Source: Rhexocercosporidium sp. MPI-PUGE-AT-0058 (Eukaryota > Ascomycota > Leotiomycetes > Helotiales). Taken from it: DNA of 29,692 nucleotides. Below are positions 1,219 to 16,920 of the stretch, piece after piece. Under the pieces are notes generated by a model. It saw only the letters and a list, made by a program, of their open reading frames with translations. It had not been told where the DNA came from and searched no databases. Within the stretch, counting starts at the first letter, position 1; every line of letters begins with the position of its first letter. The stretch is taken from positions 1 through 29,692 of the forward strand of contig JAGTJL010000051.1 of the NCBI GenBank assembly GCA_020746875.1, written 5' to 3'. The translations under genes and the position numbers were made by a program.

Positions 1219-4200
1219 ATGGAGCCACTATCTGTACTGAGCCTCGGCGCGGTCATTTTGGAATTCGTCCAGTATACAGATGAACATTGCCGAATCTTCA
1301 GGAACCTCTGTGACGATAACTACAATGATTTCAGGGAAGGCCTTTTCTTCGACATCACGAGACATTTCATGTACTTCGCGGCCGTTTTCAAGGCCCAACC
1401 GCCGACTGAGTCTAAAGTGCAGAGCCAGGTGAGTCGCTTGCGTTTTCAACCTACAGCTCAACGCCATGTAGCTCACCTTCGTGCAGGCACTGAACATGCT
1501 CCTCGAGGGATGCCATAAGATCGCTGCGGAAATGAGAGTAATCTTTTACAAGATGGCCAAAGACGAAGAAGTCAAGGATAACAACGTCCAGCTAGTCCTA
1601 AGAATCAAGAAGGCCAAGGAGTTCTGGAATGAGTCCGAAGTCTACCGTATACTCTCCAAGCTTGAAAGCTACAACAATCAGGTGGCGCCATGTATGCTAG
1701 CAATCATGCCCGCTCACCTTGACGCCATGGATGAAGAGCAGAGTGCTCGTTCCGGCACCATGTACCGCAGTTACGGGAAGATTACCGAGATCTTGACCGT
1801 CGTCGATAACAATCTGGAGTCGCTCGAGATCGAGAACATAAACTTGCGACGTGCAATGGGTGCAAAGGAATATAATCCCAACATTTCGCCCAGCCGCCGC
1901 CAGTATGAACCCGCTATGGCTGCCGTGGTGACTTTTCAGGGTGGAACGACCAGATTTTTAACTAGAACGGGCATGGCAAACCCTTACTCCCACGACAAGC
2001 AGCTCAAGGTCATGGTCTTGCGGGATGCGGATCGCTCTCCGGTGCTCGATGATTTCACATCAATACAAGACTTAGTGCTCCGCACTCTCATTTTCCCCAA
2101 GTTTTACGATCGCATCAAGCTAGTTAAAGAGGCCCACCACGAGACATACGAATGGGCGTTCTGCCCCCCCGAGGCTGGGAAGCCTTGGTCTCCCTTGGTT
2201 GGGTGGTTAGAGGACGAGGCTGGCTGTTATTACATCAAAGGGAAGCCGGGCTCTGGAAAGTCGACGCTGATGAAGTTCATCGCCCAGCACCAGCGGCTAG
2301 CAGCCGCGCTTGGGAAATGGGCTGGCAACGATCTCATTAGCGCCTCATTCTTCTTTTGGAATCTGGGGTCGCCGCTGCATAAATCTTCGGTCGGTCTGCT
2401 TCGCGGGTTGTTGTACGACATACTCAGGCAACGCCCGTGGCTGATATCCGTCGCCATGCCCGAACTTTGGAGAGCCGCAGTCTATCTCCCCCCGGGCGGT
2501 AGTCTAAGCGAGCCCTCCCTGGAGGAATTGAAGCAGTGGTTTCTTAAAATCTCGGACGGGTGGGGAACGGGAATCAAGTTTTTTTTCATGCTCGACGGCA
2601 TCGACGAGTTCGAGAGCGACCACAAGGAGTTGGTAGATCTGTTACATAAAGTCGTCGAGGGCGGCAAAGTCAAGATTCTCCTTTCTAGTCGGCCGACTCC
2701 GCTTTCAGAGGACTCATTTTCGCGCTGGCCAAGTCTTCGTCTTCAGGATCTTACCAGAGGTGATATCCGGAAGTACGCAGAAGATCATCTGTCTACAAGA
2801 GTGAAGCAGAAGCACGGAGAACAGTGGGTAGCGCTGATCGACGAAATCACCGAGAAGTCATACGGGGTCTTCCTGTGGGTCTTCTTGGTTGTTAAATCAC
2901 TCAAGGAGGGTTTCATAAAAGGAGATAACATCCAGGAAATGCGGAAGCGCCTGGTTGAACTGCCGTCCGACCTCGAGTCTCTCTATGATCACATATTTCA
3001 GCATCTTGAATCGCGTTACCGAATTCAAATGTCGGAGTTATTCCAGCTCTTGTTAAAGGCCCAGCAAGTGCAGTCGTCAGCGGGATACCCTTTGCTAATG
3101 CAGTTATCATTCTGTGCTGGTGACCCCCAGCAGGTCTTGTCCCTGCCGATGGGCTCTGTTGATCCCGAATACTGTCAAGACCAGCTCGACGAAACCAACC
3201 TTCGCATCCGTAGCAGGAGTTGTGGGCTCATCGAGAGCCGCGAGTGGCAGACGAACCGCATAAGCCCCACCACCAACACCCAAATCACCACGCAATTTGT
3301 CGACTTCATCCATCGCACGGTGGTGGAGTTCCTCCTCCTGCCCCGGATCTGGAAGCTGCTGATAACTCTCACTACCACAAGCCCCAAACACCATTACGAC
3401 CCGAGCCCAGAACTGTTCCGTTCATGCGTCATTATGTGCAAGACGTTACCTTCACCACGAGGCATCGAACCCGAGATCAGCAACCTCTGGCACATGGCCG
3501 ACCGAGCGCTGGTATTTGCTTCTATGGCCGAGGATTCGGGAAATCCTGTCCCGCTAGAGCATCTTAAGGAGCTAGACGCCGTCGTCACCGCGCATTGGGC
3601 CAAGATCATGCACTGCTTCTCTCGCCTAGGAACCTGTGATAGAAAGGGCCACTGGGCAGAGGGCTATAAAGTAGATCCACAGAGGCAACATATTCTTCAT
3701 CCAAACAGTTTTGCATCGGTCGCGTTATTTCACGGACTCGAGGACTATCTGACTAGAGAACTTGCTTGTGGATCAACAAGCTCAGCAATGGACACTAGCA
3801 TGTTACTCTACACTTGCCTGGAATATATCGGCGTCCCGCCCTGGAATCTCTCGGTCCCGGAGTTTGATGGGAGCCTCACTCGCGAGGCACTACTGTTTTT
3901 GGACCGGCAGGCAGTGCTACGGCCGCGGTGGGCCAATATAGCCATTTGTGCGCTGAAGTCAAACAGCTCCGACCCCAATAAGGCCGTGGTCGGTGGTGAC
4001 AGTTCGTGGAGCTTAATGGTCTCTTACATAGTAGCAGCTGGCGCACACAACACCAAGCAGACCTTTCACCGCGACCTCGAGGCGAAGGACAACGCATTCG
4101 CGCACACCTTCGCACAACTCATCGACACGTTCATCAGGCATGGAGCTGATCTGGGGTTCTGCTCAGTGAGTGGAGGGCAACCGGCGTGGAGGCTCATCGA

Positions 4201-4342
4201 GCAGCTGTTCTCGGACCAGCGCAGCTCGAGGATCAACCCCTGGGCGCGCGAGCCAGTAGTGAAGATCAACACTGAGGTCATGATCATGCGCGAATACTTT
4301 GAAAGTTTGTTACTGGAGTATAGGGGGTCAAGGCCTGGTTGA
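1219..4342 (+). CDS. NACHT-domain STAND NTPase (fungal NLR-like receptor), two exons
   Basis: Exons 1219-1428 and 1487-4342 give about 1021 aa. The start is the ATG at 1219 (MEPLSVLSLG, a typical opening of fungal STAND proteins). Residues 1-300 are mostly helical and resemble the HeLo-like or goodbye-type N-terminal domains of this group; the exact family is not settled. The NTPase follows: Walker A GKPGSGKS at 322-329 with Lys328 and Ser329, Walker B-like LDGIDE at about 439-444 behind a run of Phe, then KILLSSRP, and a winged-helix region with FIHRTVVEFL near 677-686, as in many fungal NACHT proteins. The last ~340 residues show no ankyrin, WD40 or TPR repeats, so the usual ligand-sensing repeats are absent or unrecognised. 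Such proteins act in the cytoplasm as nucleotide-driven switches for non-self recognition and cell death. The gene converges on the gasdermin gene with 365 bp between stop codons. NACHT assignment is firm; ligand and effector are unknown. Confidence 0.9.
1429..1486 (+). other. Intron in the NACHT gene (58 nt, phase 0)
   Basis: Donor GTGAGT follows a CAG codon, and the acceptor GTGCAG ends at 1486. Branch-point candidates are GCTCAC at 1471-1476 and GCTCAAC at 1456-1462. Removing it joins the 70-codon N-terminal exon in frame to the long exon, which otherwise has no upstream in-frame ATG before codon 6 of that exon. Confidence 0.85.
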
Positions 4343-4707
4343 GCAAGGGAGTACCGTGCTGTTCCTTGAGATCCAAGCAGTGATTATCAGGAAACGGAAC
4401 AGTTAACAGCCCTGGTATATGACGAGGATTTCTGGTTGTGGATGCTCAATACTAAACTCTGAATACAAATTTTACTTTTCATGCTAAACATATGTAATCA
4501 TTTGATTATCGTTATAGGTCTTTGCTTCACTGAAGAGAACGTGAGTGACGGTAGTGATAAAGATATTAGCGGTAGATATTGCAATGTAAGGAGAGATAAT
4601 CAACGCCGAGACGGTGATAATGGTTAACCGTGCCGTCTGCTTGCCAACACATTCCCTTACTCGTGGTTAATCGCTTAATCCATATAGCTCTTGAAGCAAA
4701 ACCATGA
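4343..4707. other. Convergent 3' intergenic region
   Basis: 365 bp between the stop of the NACHT gene (+) and the stop of the gasdermin gene (-). It should hold both 3' UTRs. I see no canonical AATAAA on either strand and no coding potential. It becomes more AT-rich between about 4,440 and 4,620. Confidence 0.6.
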
Positions 4708-5568
4708 CTATCTTTTTATCAATATCACGTCGTACTCCTCTCCATCGTCCTCCATGACCTTGCCGAGCTGCTGTCCTTTCTCCACTACATCAGAGAGGTC
4801 GTGATCTTGCGCTTTATCAAATACGAAATTGTCTATGGTATCATCTCCGTCTTCATCTTCGGAATCGGAGTTTTGGCTTTGGCTCGGCAGTCCATGCAAA
4901 TCACCCTCCTTGCCGAATGGCCGATGTCGAACGCTTCGCCAGCGATAAAAGATCTCTTCGAGCCGATATGCGAAAATGAAGGGCTCGTCAAGGTCATATG
5001 CGACGCTCTCAGGGTCCGATTTGTCGACTTCGAACTTGGGACCGACCTTGACAGGGACTCCGGTGACGGCCATCAAGTCCACCATTGCAGCCAACCGGAA
5101 GCCGAATCTCTTCAACGTCTGCTCGTTGACCGTCGCACCCGTGGCTATCTTTACGCCGGTGATGACGTACAGCCTCTCACGCCGGAGAACCTTGTCCTGG
5201 ATTTCCGGCACGGCCTTGATGGCCTCGATGTACTCCTCGGTGATCTGGAAGCTCTGTGTCCTGAGCTCTCTGCACGAGTACTCACGTCTGGTCTCCGTCT
5301 GCCCGTGCGCGCTGATCTCGCCGTCCACCACTTCGACGAACTGAGCATAGATCCCACCGCCAACCTTGACGGATGGCGATTTACTCCATTTGTAGTTTTT
5401 CAGCGGGATACTGTTGAAGACGGTGACGGACGGCGGCAAGACAATAGGCTGCGGGTTGACAGGCCCGTCTGGCAGGGCAGGGTCTAAGATGACATTTCCG
5501 AGCACGATGGACCCAATAGCAGAATAACTACCGGGGGCCACTATAAAGTAGGTCTTCTTTGCCTTCAT
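4708..5568 (-). CDS. Gasdermin-like pore-forming protein (HET-Q1/RCD-1 type)
   Basis: Single exon, 286 aa. An in-frame TTG at 5598 would add 10 residues, but fungi rarely use TTG. The first ATG after the upstream stop is at 5566-5568 (MKAKKTYFIV), so I start there. Fungal gasdermins are cytosolic 250-300 aa proteins that oligomerise in membranes after a short C-terminal tail is removed. The length fits. Residues 1-215 look like the mixed alpha/beta N-terminal domain, with the segment DEPFIFAYRLEEI at about 195-207. From about 225 comes a linker rich in Ser, Asp and Glu (SDSEDEDGDD, 234-243), then a small tail ending VILIKR. That plan, a large pore-forming part plus a tail of only 40-50 residues, is the fungal layout and differs from the ~200-residue C-terminal domain of mammals. 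A divergent subtilase gene next door matches het-Q1/het-Q2. The family call rests on length, architecture and context without an alignment; no truncation is seen. Confidence 0.8.
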   Translation of the reverse strand: MKAKKTYFIVAPGSYSAIGSIVLGNVILDPALPDGPVNPQPIVLPPSVTVFNSIPLKNYKWSKSPSVKVGGGIYAQFVEVVDGEISAHGQTETRREYSCRELRTQSFQITEEYIEAIKAVPEIQDKVLRRERLYVITGVKIATGATVNEQTLKRFGFRLAAMVDLMAVTGVPVKVGPKFEVDKSDPESVAYDLDEPFIFAYRLEEIFYRWRSVRHRPFGKEGDLHGLPSQSQNSDSEDEDGDDTIDNFVFDKAQDHDLSDVVEKGQQLGKVMEDDGEEYDVILIKR

Positions 5569-6055
5569 ATTTGGGTTGGTGATGATGAAATGTAGCAAGG
5601 CACTGGCTCGAATAAGGCTGCTCTGGCCTTCCCACTCTGGTATTTATGTACGGAGTAGAGTTCCAACCCCAGATGTGGGGCGGGGCGGGCCGACGCTCAC
5701 AAAAGCGGCGATGTTGGCTGCGCTGCGCCTGGATCCTGCGCCGCGGCCAAGCCCTGCCCCACTTTAGCGCCATGCCATTTCATTGTCTTATTGAACAGGG
5801 AGCAGCAAACAATCGATGCTCCCCCTGCCGTGATGAGACGAGTGGCGGGCGCCAACCTTCTGCTCATAATGGAGTTACCATTTGTCGACTCAGCCTTACA
5901 ATACAGTACAGTGCGCCCTGACTCACCGCCCCAATGCAGTCACAGAAGGCGCACTTTCTCGCTTTGTTGCTGGCTACAACTACCCATACATTATCCTTCA
6001 CTTAACGAACAATTCAGGACCGGCCTCGGTCATCCTTCCGGACCCTGAGGACAAC
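5569..6055. promoter_or_regulatory. Shared divergent promoter region of gasdermin and protease genes
   Basis: 487 bp separate the two ATGs, so both promoters lie here. For the gasdermin (minus strand) a TATA-like TACATAAATA sits at 5641-5650, about 73 bp before its ATG. On the protease side no TATA is clear; a CCAAT occurs near 5930. A plus-strand ATG at 5833 opens a 71-codon frame that stops at 6046-6048, only 7 bases before the protease ATG, and could act as an upstream ORF if the transcript starts early. Coregulation of the pair is inferred from the head-to-head arrangement only. Confidence 0.5.
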
Positions 6056-8697
6056 ATGGCGGCTAACAGGCACCGCGGTATCTCCAGGCAGGGCACTGGC
6101 CATGGCAGTTCTGGCCTCTTGTCCCATCGCGCTCCTCAATCCACGGTGCTTCTCAACGATCCTTGGGCAGAGAAGGCCGAGAATCGCTTCTCCTATCAGT
6201 CGCCAAATCGCCATGAATCGCCAGGACAGGCTGGCACCGAGGAATGGTTAATGCAGCGCCTGAGAGAGGAAGCCGAGGCAGCTGTTAACTATCTTGCACA
6301 GAACTTAGGACCTGGGCCATGGATCGATGTTACAGCTGCTTCCAGTCACCCCTTTCGCACGCCATTGACGACATGGTATACTGAGGGACGAAAGACTCGA
6401 GATGATTATGCCGACCTTCTACGTGGGTCATTTAGATATTCTCTGTCAAGCAGAGATATCTCGGAGATGCAGCAAGCGCTGCAAGAGCTTCATTGCTTGC
6501 CATTCCCAACGGTGCCGCCTAAATCCGACCCTTTTTTCTCTTTGTTGGACAAGGTTGACGGACTGTTCATCTCTGGCCGTGGGCGGCTTGGTGTGTTGCC
6601 GAAGTTAGGAGGCTTTGTTGTCCAGCATACAATTTCAGGGGCATGCGACGTCCCAGAACTTCTATCCGAGCCTTCTTCAGCACTTGAGTCCTATTTTTCC
6701 ACACCCGACGCAGGGTTGGCCGAGAAACTATATGACATCTACATCCGCCTTACCGCTCATGTTTCGAGGGCGAGATGGGAAACCAGGATAGATGTTAGCG
6801 ATCTTCATCGATCAGCCGAGCAAAAACTTGCAGATCTGCAGATGGGTTCTCAACAAATGAAAACGCGTAGTGGCTGTCAACTCGTGGCTTCGCCGTTCCT
6901 GGCCTACTTCCAAGCTCGTGTGGTTGAGTTGGAGACCACTCTGGAATGCGACATGGATAGTACCCTCGAGCTTCAATTCCAGCGCCAGATCCAGGACACT
7001 TCGCAGCTCCAATTTCCTCCAACAGAAGCCAATGCCGCCTTTGCCCATATTGCGGCTCTCGAGCATGCTTTTCGCAATGAGGCTGACCCGGTATGCACAG
7101 CGTTAGCACTGGCTGGTGATAATCGAGGTTCGCTGGACAGTCAGTATATACGGGGAGTCTTAAAGAACCCCTTGACAGACATCGAATATGTGCGTCATCC
7201 ACTGACGACTGCCACGCATGCTGGAAGCCTTCCTGTTAGCAAATCACAAGTAGAATTCAAGGAGCAGAGGCCAAAGCACGATACACGAACAGGTGATTTA
7301 ACGCAGCCGTTGTTACAAAATCCACATCAGGATGGGAGAGATGGTACTCAAAGTCTGCTCCCTTCACAACTCGTAGGTTACCACCAGCAAGTAGAGATCT
7401 CGCCACACAGGTTCCATATCAAAGCAGTGCATTTCAATAACCCCATAGATGTTGTCCTTCGGATTTTACCTGAGCGAGAGGATGCGCCAACACCATCAAG
7501 TCCACCACACATCGAAGACTTTCCTTGTCAGTCCGAAGAGGAGTTGAGTATATCCAGCGAGGTATGCTATATTTAATCTTGAAATACGAATAAAGCTGAC
7601 CGTTACGGCAGCCCGATGAACGGCTAGAAAGCGAGGGGGAAGGATCTCTCTTTGATATACAGGTGGAGAGCGATATTAGGGGCCTCAATGCCACGGCAGC
7701 CAGGGCATGGATCAGTACGTACCTAAAACGGACACAGACGGTCCTCAAAGCGCGGCGTAGTAAAGATGACAAGCGGGTCCGTATTGCCGTTCTCGACACG
7801 GGCATTGATCTTAATCATCCTGCTATTACTAAGTGCAGAACCAGCATCGTGGAGTACCACAGCTGGGTCGTCGATGACACATCCATTAGCGACGTCTGTG
7901 GTCACGGTACACACATCGCTTCCGTCCTGCTCAAGCTTGCTCCGTGGGCGGACCTATACATCGCCAAGGTATTCAAAGATGCCAACGACGTCGGCAATAC
8001 CGGGGTAGACGCTGTGGTGAAGGCAATTGACCACGCCAGGACGCAATGGAAGGTCGATATTATATCTCTCTCGTTCGGATACCGCCTCCGCAAGCCCTCG
8101 ATCGAAACGGCCATTGATGTCTGCGGTCTTACAAAACCGCCCATCCTTATCTTCGCAGCAGCGGCCAATACCGGTGCACTGGAGGATCGACCGGCATTCC
8201 CGGGGCGCATGAGGTCCGTTTTTTGTATAAACTCGGCCTCGGGTGACGGTAAAGCAATGTCGTACAATCCGCCGATGCTCCGCGGAAGTTTCAACTACAC
8301 TTTTCTAGGTGATGCCATCACTGGGGCATGGCCGATAGCAAGATCAGCCGACCACGGCGTTATCATCAAGAACAGTGACAAGGGTCCGGAGAGAATACTC
8401 TCGGGCACGTCACTCGCCGCACCAGTGGCTGCCTCGGTCGCAGCTGCCGTGCTCGAGCTTTGCCGGCAGCGGCCGCGGATCCCCGAGTTGAGCGACTGGT
8501 GCGTAGCGCGCGTGCAAACCTATGATGGGATGCAAGAGGTGTTCCGCGCCACCATGCAAGGACCTGGAGTGCACGAGTATACGCTCATTCAGCCGTGGGG
8601 CCTCTTCGACGCTTGGGAGGCAGAGGAGGCAGAGGATGCGCGGCTCGCGGCCGGGCGGAGGCTAGCTTTGGTTATACAACGAGAGTTTGGCACTTAG
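6056..8697 (+). CDS. Subtilisin-like serine protease, peptidase S8 (HET-Q2-like), two exons
   Basis: Exons 6056-7561 and 7612-8697 join in frame to about 863 aa. The first ATG of the frame is at 6056; a TTG at 5882 was rejected as a start. Residues 1-502 form a large N-terminal region I cannot assign: helix-rich to about 400, then a Pro/Gln/Ser-rich linker. The S8 domain fills 555-800. Catalytic Asp564 lies in VLDTGIDLNHP, His600 in GHGTHIASV, the oxyanion Asn688 in AAAANTGAL and Ser769 in SGTSLAAP, all present. There is no signal peptide, so the enzyme should be cytosolic, unlike secreted proteinase K types. In Podospora, HET-Q2 is a subtilase that activates the gasdermin HET-Q1 by cutting its tail; the neighbouring gasdermin gene suggests the same job here. 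Protease identity is firm; the gasdermin as substrate is inference. The stop codon is only 231 bp from RIP-mutated transposon DNA, yet the reading frame is intact. Confidence 0.92.
7562..7611 (+). other. Intron in the protease gene (50 nt, phase 0)
   Basis: Donor GTATGC after a GAG codon, branch point GCTGAC at 7595-7600, acceptor ACGGCAG ending at 7611. An in-frame TAA at 7574 lies inside it, which is why the gene appears as two separate open frames. Splicing restores one frame that runs from the N-terminal region into the catalytic domain. Confidence 0.9.
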
Positions 8698-8928
8698 TGT
8701 TAGATTGGTTAAGCTCTTTCCATGAGCTACTGCCCCAGCCGTACGAGCAAGAACTGCGATGGTTACATTCACCGATACTCACTCTGGGCTGGACTTGGCG
8801 CAGGTAATACACGGGGACAGATGAATAAATGGATGACAGACCTTATTACCCTCTCTCAGGAAAATAAAATATTATACTTCTTGTTTTACTTCTTATAGTA
8901 TAAATTATACTTTATTAGGTTCTTATTC
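8698..8928. other. Protease 3' flank and transition to AT-rich DNA
   Basis: 231 bp between the protease stop and the first LTR copy. AATAAA-like poly(A) signals occur at 8824-8829 and near 8863. Base composition changes abruptly to AT-rich at about 8,860. No coding sequence seen. Confidence 0.6.
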
Positions 8929-9112
8929 TATCGTATAAGCACGGGCAGCTGCTCCCTTAGCACTGCACGTAACTTAATTAGGTTCTGCTGCTGTAGACCG
9001 CCTTTAAGAGAATACCTGTCTCTTTTAATTTCCTTTTATAATTAAAATAATAATTAATCACTTTAATTTAACTTAAACTGTTCGTAGTACTTTAATCTAC
9101 TTTTATATCACA
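8929..9112 (+). repeat. 184-bp Copia LTR, plus orientation (solo or truncated element)
   Basis: It matches the LTRs at 10877 and 18655 over its whole 184 bp, from TATCGTATAAGC (TG changed to TA) to the final ATCACA. Flanking pentamers TATTC and ATTTT do not match, and the sequence that follows is not the Copia internal region, so it is a solo LTR or the edge of a rearranged copy. Confidence 0.8.
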
Positions 9113-11060: not shown

Positions 11061-14000
11061 GTTATAAGTCTTGTTAACGAAGCTATTAAGTTAATATTCT
11101 TTTTTTTATACGCTATTAATTTAGATAAAGCTTATAAGGCAAGTTAGTAGATAAAGAGCATCTGCTATACGTTGCAGAGTTTTCTATTTTATTATAAAAT
11201 ATAATTCATACTGCTGTTTTCTATTAACTCTTCGATTCTACTCTGGACGAGTATAAAGGCCGAGCAACTGGACTCGATACTTCTCCAGTCCTTCTTCTTT
11301 TATCGAATACTCGGAGCTCACGAGAGTAATTCCTTCGTTATAATAGACTTAACTTCAGCTTCTTCTTCAAATAATCGAACTCCTCTTAATTATAATAAGC
11401 GCACTTAGATTCTTTAGTATTAAGCGTTTAAATCTTTTTATATCTTTTATAAGATATAAAATTCAGTAAACTTTGCGTTATTAATTACTTTTAACCTTTT
11501 CGACGCCGAATTAAAACCCTTATCGCTAAACGATTTAAGAATATAATAAGATAAAGAAGCTATTAAGCACAACTTCTAAGCTCAGGCGAAGTAAGACAAA
11601 GATGCTCGCGATCTTATAAAAAAAGCCTTAAGCCGAGCGTATTATTATTAGCAAAAGCTATAATTAAGAATATAGCTTTAATATATACTGCTTTTATAAA
11701 AGAATACGTAAAGAAGCTCGTATAATAGACGGAAAAAGCTCGAGCTTATAAGGCAGCTTATAAGTGGATTCAGGAGATAATTAATCTTTTTATTTATTAA
11801 AGAGCAGTTAAGGAATGCGAGAACGAGTAAGCTCGTATGGAAAAAAAGCAATTAATCGAGATAATAAACGGAAACTCTTAATTAAAATTATAGATTCTTT
11901 AATTACTTTTCCGGATCCTTAAGAGAGATTACGCTTCTTCGGAAATAAGTGCTCGCACGCTAGTATAATCTACTTATAAGAAGAAGCTCGCTATTATTAA
12001 AACAGAGCGAGTTAATCTTAAGAAGTAGCTCCAAGAATAAAGAGCGGCTTATTAAGATATTTTTTATACGACTTGCCGGACGTTAAAGGACCGCTAATAA
12101 TACTTGATTTTATTAAGGCGGTGCAAGAGAAGCTCGCACCGGAATAAGCGCGCGAACAGCACTCTGAATTATTAAAAGATAATATTCTCGGATAATAAAT
12201 TAGTATTCTTTACTTAATTACGTTAATTAATTATCTGCTTTTAATAAGGAATTACTTATAACCTTTGGATAATAAAAGATAGTAAGCTTATATATTACTC
12301 TTAAAAAAAGATCAGATACTTCCGTAATTTTATCGGTTTAACGAAATCAGTCGCTAAACACGCGAGTAAATACCTGCTTATGCAAGTATTACTTTTATTA
12401 TTATAAGATTATTAATTATTATAAACTTCGGTATTATTACGACGGCTCGACGGCGAGTAACCTCAGGAACTTATTATCAGTAAAAGAAATTAAAGAGATT
12501 CGACTCCGATTAGAGAGCGATTTCCTTAACTTCCGCCGAGAAATTACTAAATTCAGCGAGAATATACTATTAGTAACGCAATTAGCTTCCGGATTACTTT
12601 CCGGTAATTCCTTTTTTACTTAAGTACTAGCAGTTCTTATGATTTTAAAGCTAATTGCTTTAATAAAAGCAAGATACTTTAAAAACATTCAAGCTTGCCT
12701 TATAAGCCCTGAATTTCTCGACGAAGCTCTTACTACTACGGGAGTATACGCTATTATAAATATAAATCGCTATCCGCTTGTAAAAAGTACTTTACTCGAT
12801 AACGGAACTGCTATTTATTTAATAAATTCAAAACTTTTCTCGTTCTCAGAAGCTTTATTAAATCTATTATAAACGATAGCGTTAAAGCCGGAACGTTAAG
12901 TCTAATAATTAAAAGCCGCGGTACTCGAGTCTTTAAAAGTGCTCTTTACGGCTTTAACGGACCGAATATAAGCGATTTAACCCTCTCGAACGTCGCTATT
13001 ATTAAAGGCTTTAATATTAATATTATTTCAGAAGCTTGCTTTTTATAAGCAAGAGTTTAGTATAATAATTTAGATTGTATTTTACGTACGGAAATAACTG
13101 AGGATAATCTGGTTTTAAAATAATTATAGCGATAATTTAATTTAGTTTTTTTAAATATAAGCTTTTTAATTACTTTTCGGTTTCTTTAATTACTTGCTGT
13201 ATTTTAATTCGCCTAAATTATAGTTTTTTAATATTTTTAACGCTAAAAAGGAGCATCTGCCAAAGTTTTCAGTCGAGCAAACGATATTTAAAGCTACGAG
13301 TCGACGAAACTTACTTATGGTATTTGCGCGCAGGTTATTTTGGAAAAGAAGCTTTGGAAAACTTAATGAAAAATGCGCGTAACGTCGAGATTTAAGGTTT
13401 AATTCGGTTGGAATACGAGTATTATGCGGTAATTATTATATAGCAAGTAATAAGTCGTCGTTAATCAGAGAAAGCAGTTACTTGTCTTTTTTATCGTATT
13501 TCTTAGGATTTATTCGACTTTTTAATAAGTTTTAACAGAAATAACTAACTTTTATTAATTAAGGATAAATACGATAGGAAATTCTACGAGTAGCTTTTGA
13601 AAACTAAAAAATTAATCGCTATCTTAAATACTTTTAAACCGTTTAAAGCGTAAACGAAACGCCAATTCGGGCTCTCGGTCTGCAAAATACGCCAAGATAA
13701 CGACATTTCAATTATAAGAATTAATAGATCAACTAAATATAAAAAGTAATATAAAGAGAATAATATTAATATTGAATTTACTTCCTCATATATATACTAA
13801 TCTAATAAAAGAGCTAAGCGCGCAAGCAAAGAAATAATTAATAAATCGATTAAGATGCGCCTTTCCGCTAATTTACTCCGAGCGCTTTAAACGGAATTAA
13901 TAATAGCAGCAATTATTTTTATAATATAAGTTTATTTACTCGTAAAAGCTTCAAGAGTCCTAACGAAGTATTCTAAGTCTGATTTAAGTAATATTTTCGG

Positions 14001-16920
14001 TATTATAACTTTAAGCTTATACTAAAGCTGATAACTGATTTACGGCCTGACTGGAGCAACTTATATGCGTACGATTATAAAGCCTACCTTATAATTAAAG
14101 ACCGAGAAGCTCTCCGCTAAAAAAGAGCTTTTAAAATCAACTCGCGAGCGCACTTTAATTATTTAATTAAATATGTCTCATTTAATATTTATAAGATCTA
14201 AATGCTTTAATTATAATATGTAATAATAACTCGGAATATTACTTTTAACGAAATCTTCTTTTATTTAAGTTCTTTAAATATAAAAAGAGCAATCAGCCAG
14301 CCGCGCTTAATATTAAAGAATCTTATAGAAATATTAAAAGAAGAAAAAGGAGATCAGGATGTTAATTTTATTATAATCAATCGACTGAGCGCACTTGATA
14401 TACTAGAATCAAAAATACCGTTTATTACTCCGAACAGAGAATAACTAAGCGAAGTAATAAGCGCTATAAAAGTCGACGAGCTTATAAGCTCGGAAGTATT
14501 AAAACTTCTGGTTAAGTTTTCAAGCTCGGGGGTAGAGCTATTTGCTCTTCTTTTAGCTAAGTTAATAAAAGTAGATACGCCACTTCTAGTTAATTTAATA
14601 GCTTTTAATTTTATTTAGCCGCTTATTAATAAGAACTCGGGAGTAATTTAGTTAAGAAAGAGTGCTAGACTTCTTACTTATAAGCACTTTAATTAGGTTT
14701 TAAAATAAGTCGATATTTCAAGATAATTAGCGTTTAAGAGCGTAATTAAGAGAAGTATCTTATATAATATATTAAACTTCTAGAATAATATAAGCCTTAA
14801 GCGGAAGTCGATATTACAAGTTATAATTTACTTTAAAAAATTATACGATCGAGAGCGCGGTTTCAAGCGTTAAAGAGCACTTAAAGAAAGTATCGGCTTT
14901 AAGTAATTAAAAGCTCTGCCTTAAGTAACTGAGTACGAGAAGTATCTGTAATTATTAGAATTAGAAGAAAATAAAGAGTCAGGTTTACGCTTATTATTCC
15001 CGGCTTTAATTAAATCAAATTCCGGCTTATTTAAATCTTTTAAAAAGAAAAGAATAAAAGACCGAGCAATTAATAAAAATCGAAAGACTCGAGTTAGTAA
15101 TAAGGTAACGAAACCGAATCGAAGCGTTTATATAATAACTATTAAAGAGCTAATTACGGAATTATTATAACTGTTAAGTAACCGCGAGCACTTAAAGGAT
15201 TTTCTAAGGACTTTTTGACTTAATTAAGAACTAATACGAAAAGACGGAAAAGACCTGAGCGTAATTTACGCTATTATATTAGTATTTGTATTTAAAAATA
15301 TCGAAATTTAATAATTAATTAAATTCTTACAGATTTATTAATTACAAATACTTAAAGACTTATTAAATTGGAAAGACCTTAGGGACTACTTGTTAAAAGA
15401 GCACTTCCGAGCCGACGCTATTAAGGAGATAATTAACCTTAAGTCGCGCAATTACTAGAGAGTCGTCAAATACACTTTTATTACCGAGCAATTAATTCCC
15501 TTGAAATAAGTATTTTACGCTAAAGTCGATTTGTTAAGGTATTTAACCCGCTGTCGCTCCCGAGTCGTTATAAGAGGAGATTTACAGCCTGAAACGTTAA
15601 TTTTATTAATATATGTAGCTACTTTAGCTGCTTGCTTTTTCAGAACCGTTATAGCTATTGCAGCTTAATTTGATTTAGAAATAATTTAATTTGATATAAT
15701 AAATGCCTTTATCAACGCTAAACGAAATGAAATAAGTGCTCGCGTACGCTATTATTTACCGGACGATTTTAAATAAAACGGAATAATAATAGAAGTTAAT
15801 CGCGCATTTTACGAACTCAGGGATTTACCGGCGTTATAATACGGTAACTTCACTCATACTTTAATAACTTTAAGGTTAATCGCTTATAAAAAGGAGCCTT
15901 ATATATTTATAAATAAGCAACGTACGGTATTTATAATATTTTATATCAATGATATTCAAGTGCTCTATTATACTTCGGCTTTTAAAGACGCTAAATTAAT
16001 TATCGACGGCTTGAATATAATATATAAGCTTACCGGAAGAGAGCAAACGGAATAGTTCTTAAGCGTTCGTATTATTAAAGATCGATTAGCGAAGATTATC
16101 TCTTTAGTATACGATACTTATATTTAAAAAGTTACTTTTCGATTTGAATTAGTAAACGGAAATTACTTAAGTATATTATTACTTTAAGTCGAGCTATTAA
16201 AGAATCAAGAATAAGCTACTTCAGCTCAAATTAAAGAGTTTCAAGAAAAAGTTAAATCAGTGCTTTATACTATAATCATATTACGCGCAAATGTTGCTTT
16301 TGCTACTTTAAAGCTTTCTTATTTTTTAATTAATCCTTCCCGAGAGCACTTAGCTGCAATTAACTAGATAATTCGTTATCTTTTCGGCACTTGTTTTTTA
16401 GCGATTACTTATAGCTATAAGCTACGCGATTCCTACTTTATAATAGCATCAGATGCTTCTTTTGCGGACGATATCGAGACAAGGCGATCTTTTAATAGAT
16501 ATATCTTTATACTTTTTAAAAGTTTAATTCTTTAGAAAGCAGCTTTATAAGATATAATTATTACGTTTATAATATAAGCAGAGCTTCTTAGAGTTGAGCG
16601 CACCGGCAAGGAATTTATAGCATTTCAGCGATTCTTTCAAGAATTACGCCTTAATATAAAAGCAGCTTAAATAATTTTCTATAATAATTAATAGACGATT
16701 CGGTTAATCGTTAAGGAAAATCAGCGTATTTCTACTAAGTTGCGCCATATTAATATTCAGAATATATAATTACGCTAAGAGTTTCAGAAGAGTACTTTTA
16801 TAATAGAATATCTTCTTATAAGCTATATACTAGCTAACGGACTTATTAAAAACCTCTTTCGGCAGAAATTTAAAGTATTTATTACTTTTATTAACTTAAT
16901 AGATGTTCGTACTTAATTAA
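11061..16920 (+). pseudogene. Copia gag-pol polyprotein, degenerate
   Basis: Many in-frame TAA and TAG codons stand where Trp and Gln are expected. Recognisable parts in order: a gag region to about 12,600 without clear motifs; a still-open stretch 12639-12872 with the protease motif LLDNGTAIYLINS (Asp codon at 12798, DNG in place of DSG/DTG); GAG-pre-integrase LWYLRAGYFGKEALENL near 13315-13365; an integrase core with DLFDF near 13510, QDND near 13694 and an EPNGGAERAGKE-like block near 13800; reverse transcriptase with FDIINAFINA near 15690 and YINDIQVLYY near 15940 (YVDD expected, Asp read as Asn); RNase H with ASDASFADD near 16450. The element cannot encode a working polyprotein. Superfamily call is firm from domain order. 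Confidence 0.88.

Follow-up and report, generated by a model that had tools for sequence, protein, structure and literature searches.

Fungal gasdermins (fGSDMs) are commonly encoded next to a protease gene: about 80% of fungal gasdermin genes are reported to lie in two-gene fGSDM/Q2L clusters (PMC10197012), and the clustered proteases are described as putative sensors (PMC10197012, PMC12881547). In Podospora anserina, het-Q1 and het-Q2 are idiomorphs, one locus being occupied by either of two different genes (PMC12881547); HET-Q2, a protease of 388 aa, likely cuts HET-Q1 at F238, taking off 40 of its 278 residues (PMC10989679). The RCD-1 proteins of Neurospora crassa (244 and 257 aa) become active when the products of two alleles meet, and no cleavage is involved (PMC12881547). 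Here we analysed a gasdermin gene (minus strand) and an S8 protease gene (plus strand) that lie head-to-head, with 487 bp between their start codons, on a 29,692-bp contig (C47; hereafter the window) of the 62.7-Mb genome of Rhexocercosporidium sp. MPI-PUGE-AT-0058 (Helotiales). We consider it probable (about 80%) that the pair is a regulated death module of the fGSDM/Q2L kind, in which the protease is predicted to clip the gasdermin tail and free the pore core. This reading is supported by the intact frames of both genes, the RCD-1/HET-Q1 profile matches and fold of the gasdermin, three catalytic motifs in the protease and a recurrent proximity of gasdermin and S8 genes in some relatives and at sister loci. 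Among the papers searched, none names strain MPI-PUGE-AT-0058 and none combines 'fungal gasdermin' with 'Helotiales'.

The gasdermin open reading frame runs from an ATG at 5568 to a stop ending at 4708 and comprises 286 codons. Its product matched the profiles of RCD-1-1 (E 6.1e-20) and HET-Q1 (E 8.2e-14) and, weakly, a bacterial gasdermin (bGSDM) profile; relatedness to characterised fGSDMs was thus found by profile and not by single sequence. A gasdermin profile built from 12 sequences also listed two unrelated chains (E 1.4 and 1.5), which we took as chance matches. The predicted structure has the gasdermin N-terminal fold, with RCD-1 as the closest solved structure, and most gasdermin rows of the fold search cover about residues 4–220. 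The HET-Q1 structure 9uv9 was absent from the fold listings of this model, which is uninformative on the fold. The alignment of the family (A4) comprised 54 of 71 distinct gasdermin sequences; the 17 omitted were mostly short or long, and P0075 (312 aa) was also among them. By profile and predicted fold, the 286-aa protein belongs to the RCD-1/HET-Q1 family, and it likely pierces the fungus's own membrane. The initial annotation had placed a gasdermin–subtilase pair at 4708..8697, and open reading frames and splicing agree exactly with these coordinates; the profile search and the structure prediction that it proposed as checks both came out in favour of a gasdermin.

The 66 residues behind the core (221–286) contain 21 acidic (D/E) and 5 basic (K/R) residues, and the predicted local distance difference test score (pLDDT) is below 50 across residues 221–257. 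Within this tail, the motif NFVFDK has a mean column identity of 0.90 among 10 orthologs, compared with 0.77 before it and 0.88 then 0.61 after it. F248 and F250 stand 38 and 36 residues from the C-terminus, similar to the cut in HET-Q1, 40 residues from its end. We predict that cleavage by the window protease falls within or close to NFVFDK. In the mechanism that we propose, the N-terminal ~500 residues of the protease would keep it off and act as a sensor, while the tail, as in HET-Q1, would inhibit the gasdermin before cleavage. A trigger such as non-self contact, a virus or another stress would release the protease, which would cut near F248/F250 and shed 36–38 residues; after loss of the acidic tail the core would form membrane pores, and the fungal cell would likely die.

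The protease is read in two exons. Splicing a 50-nt GT..AG intron (7562–7611), already proposed in the initial annotation as the break between two open frames, joins 502 codons from the ATG at 6056 to the second frame, and the resulting 863-aa product is identical (100% identity, 100% coverage) to P0011, an NCBI 'peptidase S8/S53 domain-containing protein' of the same strain. The worry that automatic annotation might miss the 502-residue N-terminal half was therefore unfounded, since P0011 is already full-length. The exon-1 frames of three relatives stop at the same place (EVSHI, RVSHI and EVFYI, compared with EVCYI in the window), and both halves occur in one predicted protein in five relatives: P0012, P0013 and P0018, which are annotated, and P0017 and P0019, from metagenomes. 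The identical NCBI model, the matching exon-1 ends and the joined halves indicate that the protease is a single gene. Two separate genes were also considered and ruled out by the identity with P0011 and the one-protein relatives.

PF00082 matched residues 556–784 of the protease (E 5.5e-18). Motifs around D564, H600 and S769 are present, in line with the intact catalytic residues expected from the initial annotation, and N688 is likewise present in its motif; we take these four to be the S8 catalytic motifs. An S8 domain with its catalytic residues, one of the two types (S8 or CHAT) found in fGSDM/Q2L clusters, thus lies 487 bp from the gasdermin, within the ≤10 kb that defines such a cluster. 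Visual inspection of the N-terminus showed no hydrophobic leader. Pfam gave no match to the N-terminal half at E≤1 in the window and no family above cut-off in seven homologs searched at E≤10. A low-confidence model predicts this half to be mostly helical between about residues 60 and 370. In a profile comparison of residues 55–345 with eight sister or relative sequences (TPR, NTPase-like and DUF7580), the best probability was 0.9%, which decides neither for nor against a divergent TPR, NTPase or DUF7580 module.

We then compared the neighbourhood in relatives and within the genome. Judged from equal contig sizes and one pair of consecutive tags, the pair is kept together in other genomes: a protease homolog lies on a contig of equal size for four of nine close gasdermins (1160198, 5580, 10636 and 90585 bp), and in Coleophoma cylindrospora the gasdermin and protease tags are consecutive. 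The genome of the strain itself holds five gasdermin genes including that of the window, three of which were also returned by each of two other searches; the C15 gasdermin is split into two frames with 59 bp between them, presumably its exons. A search for S8 domains gave 14 matches, grouped into 8 loci. The other four gasdermins all lie near an S8 match, at ~2.4 kb (C58), ~2.8 kb (C18), ~4.9 kb (C3) and ~10.4 kb (C15); the chance of this four-of-four proximity under random placement is about 5e-11, a figure for which the radius was chosen after the loci were seen and the counts are lower bounds. The sister gene models are open frames, not annotated genes.

Compared with known systems, the locus is closest to the S8 type of fGSDM/Q2L cluster, with which it shares the close pairing of a gasdermin and a large S8 protease within a single genome, a short acidic tail and several loci per genome; it differs in the N-terminal half of the protease, for which neither Pfam nor the comparison with sister modules gave a match. 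Some bacterial gasdermin genes also have a protease gene next to them and so pair a pore former with its own protease, but these proteins are prokaryotic and distant in sequence.

The strongest alternative is a locus for heterokaryon incompatibility like het-Q1/het-Q2, at which the two genes would antagonise each other once hyphae of different strains have fused. The protein families are the same, including the HET-Q1 profile match and the S8 protease, and such systems are proposed to derive from fGSDM/Q2L clusters (PMC10197012, PMC12881547). The initial annotation had likewise seen the 'same two-gene design' as in Podospora; it had the families right, a gasdermin and a subtilase, but was mistaken about the type of system as well as about the annotation gap. 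Whereas het-Q1 and het-Q2 are idiomorphs, both genes here stand side by side in one genome, which argues for a regulated death module instead and for a protease that is presumably off by default. Moreover, the 863-aa window protease keeps a 500-residue N-terminal half, for which the bare 388-aa HET-Q2 has no room. We therefore regard an incompatibility locus as unlikely. In a second alternative the gasdermin would be activated, as RCD-1 is, by meeting a different allele, and the protease would be unrelated to it. RCD-1 is indeed the closest solved fold and the strongest profile match, and it is not controlled by cleavage (PMC12881547). RCD-1 proteins are shorter than the 286-aa window gasdermin. 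The window gasdermin, however, ends in a 66-residue tail that includes a conserved motif, and gasdermins repeatedly have S8 genes as neighbours, so that this explanation appears very improbable. Equally hard to sustain is a reading of the pair as a degenerating relic that borders an inactivated repeat block: a base bias like that of repeat-induced point mutation (RIP) runs from 9001 to the end, the TA/AT ratio is already 0.95 in 8001–9000 and at the sister locus C21 an S8 frame interrupted by stops is accompanied by what may be the remains of a gasdermin, but both window frames are intact, the catalytic motifs are present, GC is 48–56% in the kilobases of 4001–9000 and TA/AT is 0.53–0.77 in 4001–8000.

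Several observations weigh against a regulated death module. The assignment of the 286-aa protein as a gasdermin rests on profiles and one model of middling quality (pLDDT 63, predicted template modelling score 0.59) with an unreliable tail; Pfam gave 0 families at E≤1 for this protein, and a single-sequence search of solved structures returned no gasdermin and one chance match (E 0.75). The F248/F250 site is proposed by analogy, and distant relatives carry other residues at the NFVFD position, for example ILVEK in P0022, a sister gasdermin from the same strain. For five of the nine close gasdermins, the homolog search gave no protease partner; four of these are on contigs of ≤2.2 kb, but P0002 is on one of 42,781 bp. 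For the five pairs, which fall into two clades, the trees of the two partners agree weakly (Pearson 0.95 but Spearman 0.56, P 0.09). Two of the seven other S8 loci, C3:722 kb and C8:824 kb, had no gasdermin in the stretches fetched. Finally, the whole-protease model built from 9 sequences was poor (mean pLDDT 36) and was not used for any fold claim.

Table 1. Features of the window around the gasdermin–protease pair (positions in the window; residues refer to the respective protein).
Feature	Position	Strand	Basis
NLR-like gene, predicted exons 1219-1428 and 1487-4342	1219..4342	+	NACHT/NPHP3_N, DUF7791
Fungal gasdermin, 286 aa, one exon	4708..5568	-	Open reading frame, profiles, predicted fold
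C-terminal tail, predicted inhibitory piece, residues 253-286	4711..4812	-	Present in 10 close orthologs; role by analogy with HET-Q1
NFVFDK, predicted cleavage region (F248 or F250), residues 247-252	4813..4830	-	Conservation and HET-Q1 analogy
Acidic linker, low predicted order, residues 221-246	4831..4908	-	Composition; pLDDT
Predicted pore-forming core, residues 1-220	4909..5568	-	Fold alignment; conserved in 10 orthologs
Intergenic stretch, presumably shared divergent promoter region	5569..6055	.	487 bp; position only
Protease exon 1, residues 1-502, N-terminal half without Pfam match	6056..7561	+	Open reading frame, Pfam, model
Conserved part of N-terminal half, residues 55-345, predicted sensor or inhibitory module	6218..7090	+	Aligned in 9 homologs
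Intron, 50 nt, GTATGC...GCTGACC...CAG, GT..AG, with in-frame stop	7562..7611	+	Spliced product identical to P0011
Protease exon 2, residues 503-863, S8 subtilase domain	7612..8697	+	PF00082
Catalytic D564, DTGID	7795..7797	+	Motif
Catalytic H600, GHGTH	7903..7905	+	Motif
Catalytic S769, SGTSLA	8410..8412	+	Motif

The NOD-like receptor (NLR)-like gene lies 365 bp from the gasdermin in convergent orientation and is possibly, but not necessarily, part of the module; its N-terminus gave a sub-threshold SesA match. On the other side of the pair, 9001–29692 forms an AT-rich block with RIP-like dinucleotide bias (GC 18–33% per kb, TA/AT >1.2), within which bases 12001–15000 have at least 40 further genome matches at 83–86% identity (40 of 216 candidates scored).

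Further observations were made at the sister loci. At C3 (L020 4895-5894) and C15 (L037 8009-10000), the gasdermin and the S8 protease are separated by a gene of the fungal AAA+ ATPase type, with AAA_lid_13 at both, AAA at C3 and DUF7025 at C15; this gene is a possible third member of these two clusters. At C3:722 kb, the S8 frames (L022 1105-4220) have ankyrin repeats and a protein-kinase match upstream, as in a sensor-type S8 gene. A possible gasdermin remnant (E 0.0008; L025 2911-3045) lies beside an S8 frame with several stops (C21:215843-216506), perhaps a decayed pair.

As a regulated death module, the window pair would add a further case to the suicide modules that many fungi are already known to carry. 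The modules next to the S8 domains differ among the gasdermin loci of this genome: TPR repeats were found at C18, DUF7580 at C58 and C15, and a below-threshold NPHP3_N match (E 0.011) at C3. We tentatively suggest, at somewhat less than even odds, that the N-terminal half of the window protease is a new type of sensor module, found in Rhexocercosporidium, Coleophoma and Nemania, and that the genome carries five parallel switches in which four kinds of sensor act on the same S8–gasdermin output. A 2025 review names the control of fungal gasdermin-releasing proteases as future work (PMC12881547). The five gasdermin–S8 neighbourhoods, with their four kinds of N-terminal module (one below threshold), form a natural set for asking what each of them senses.
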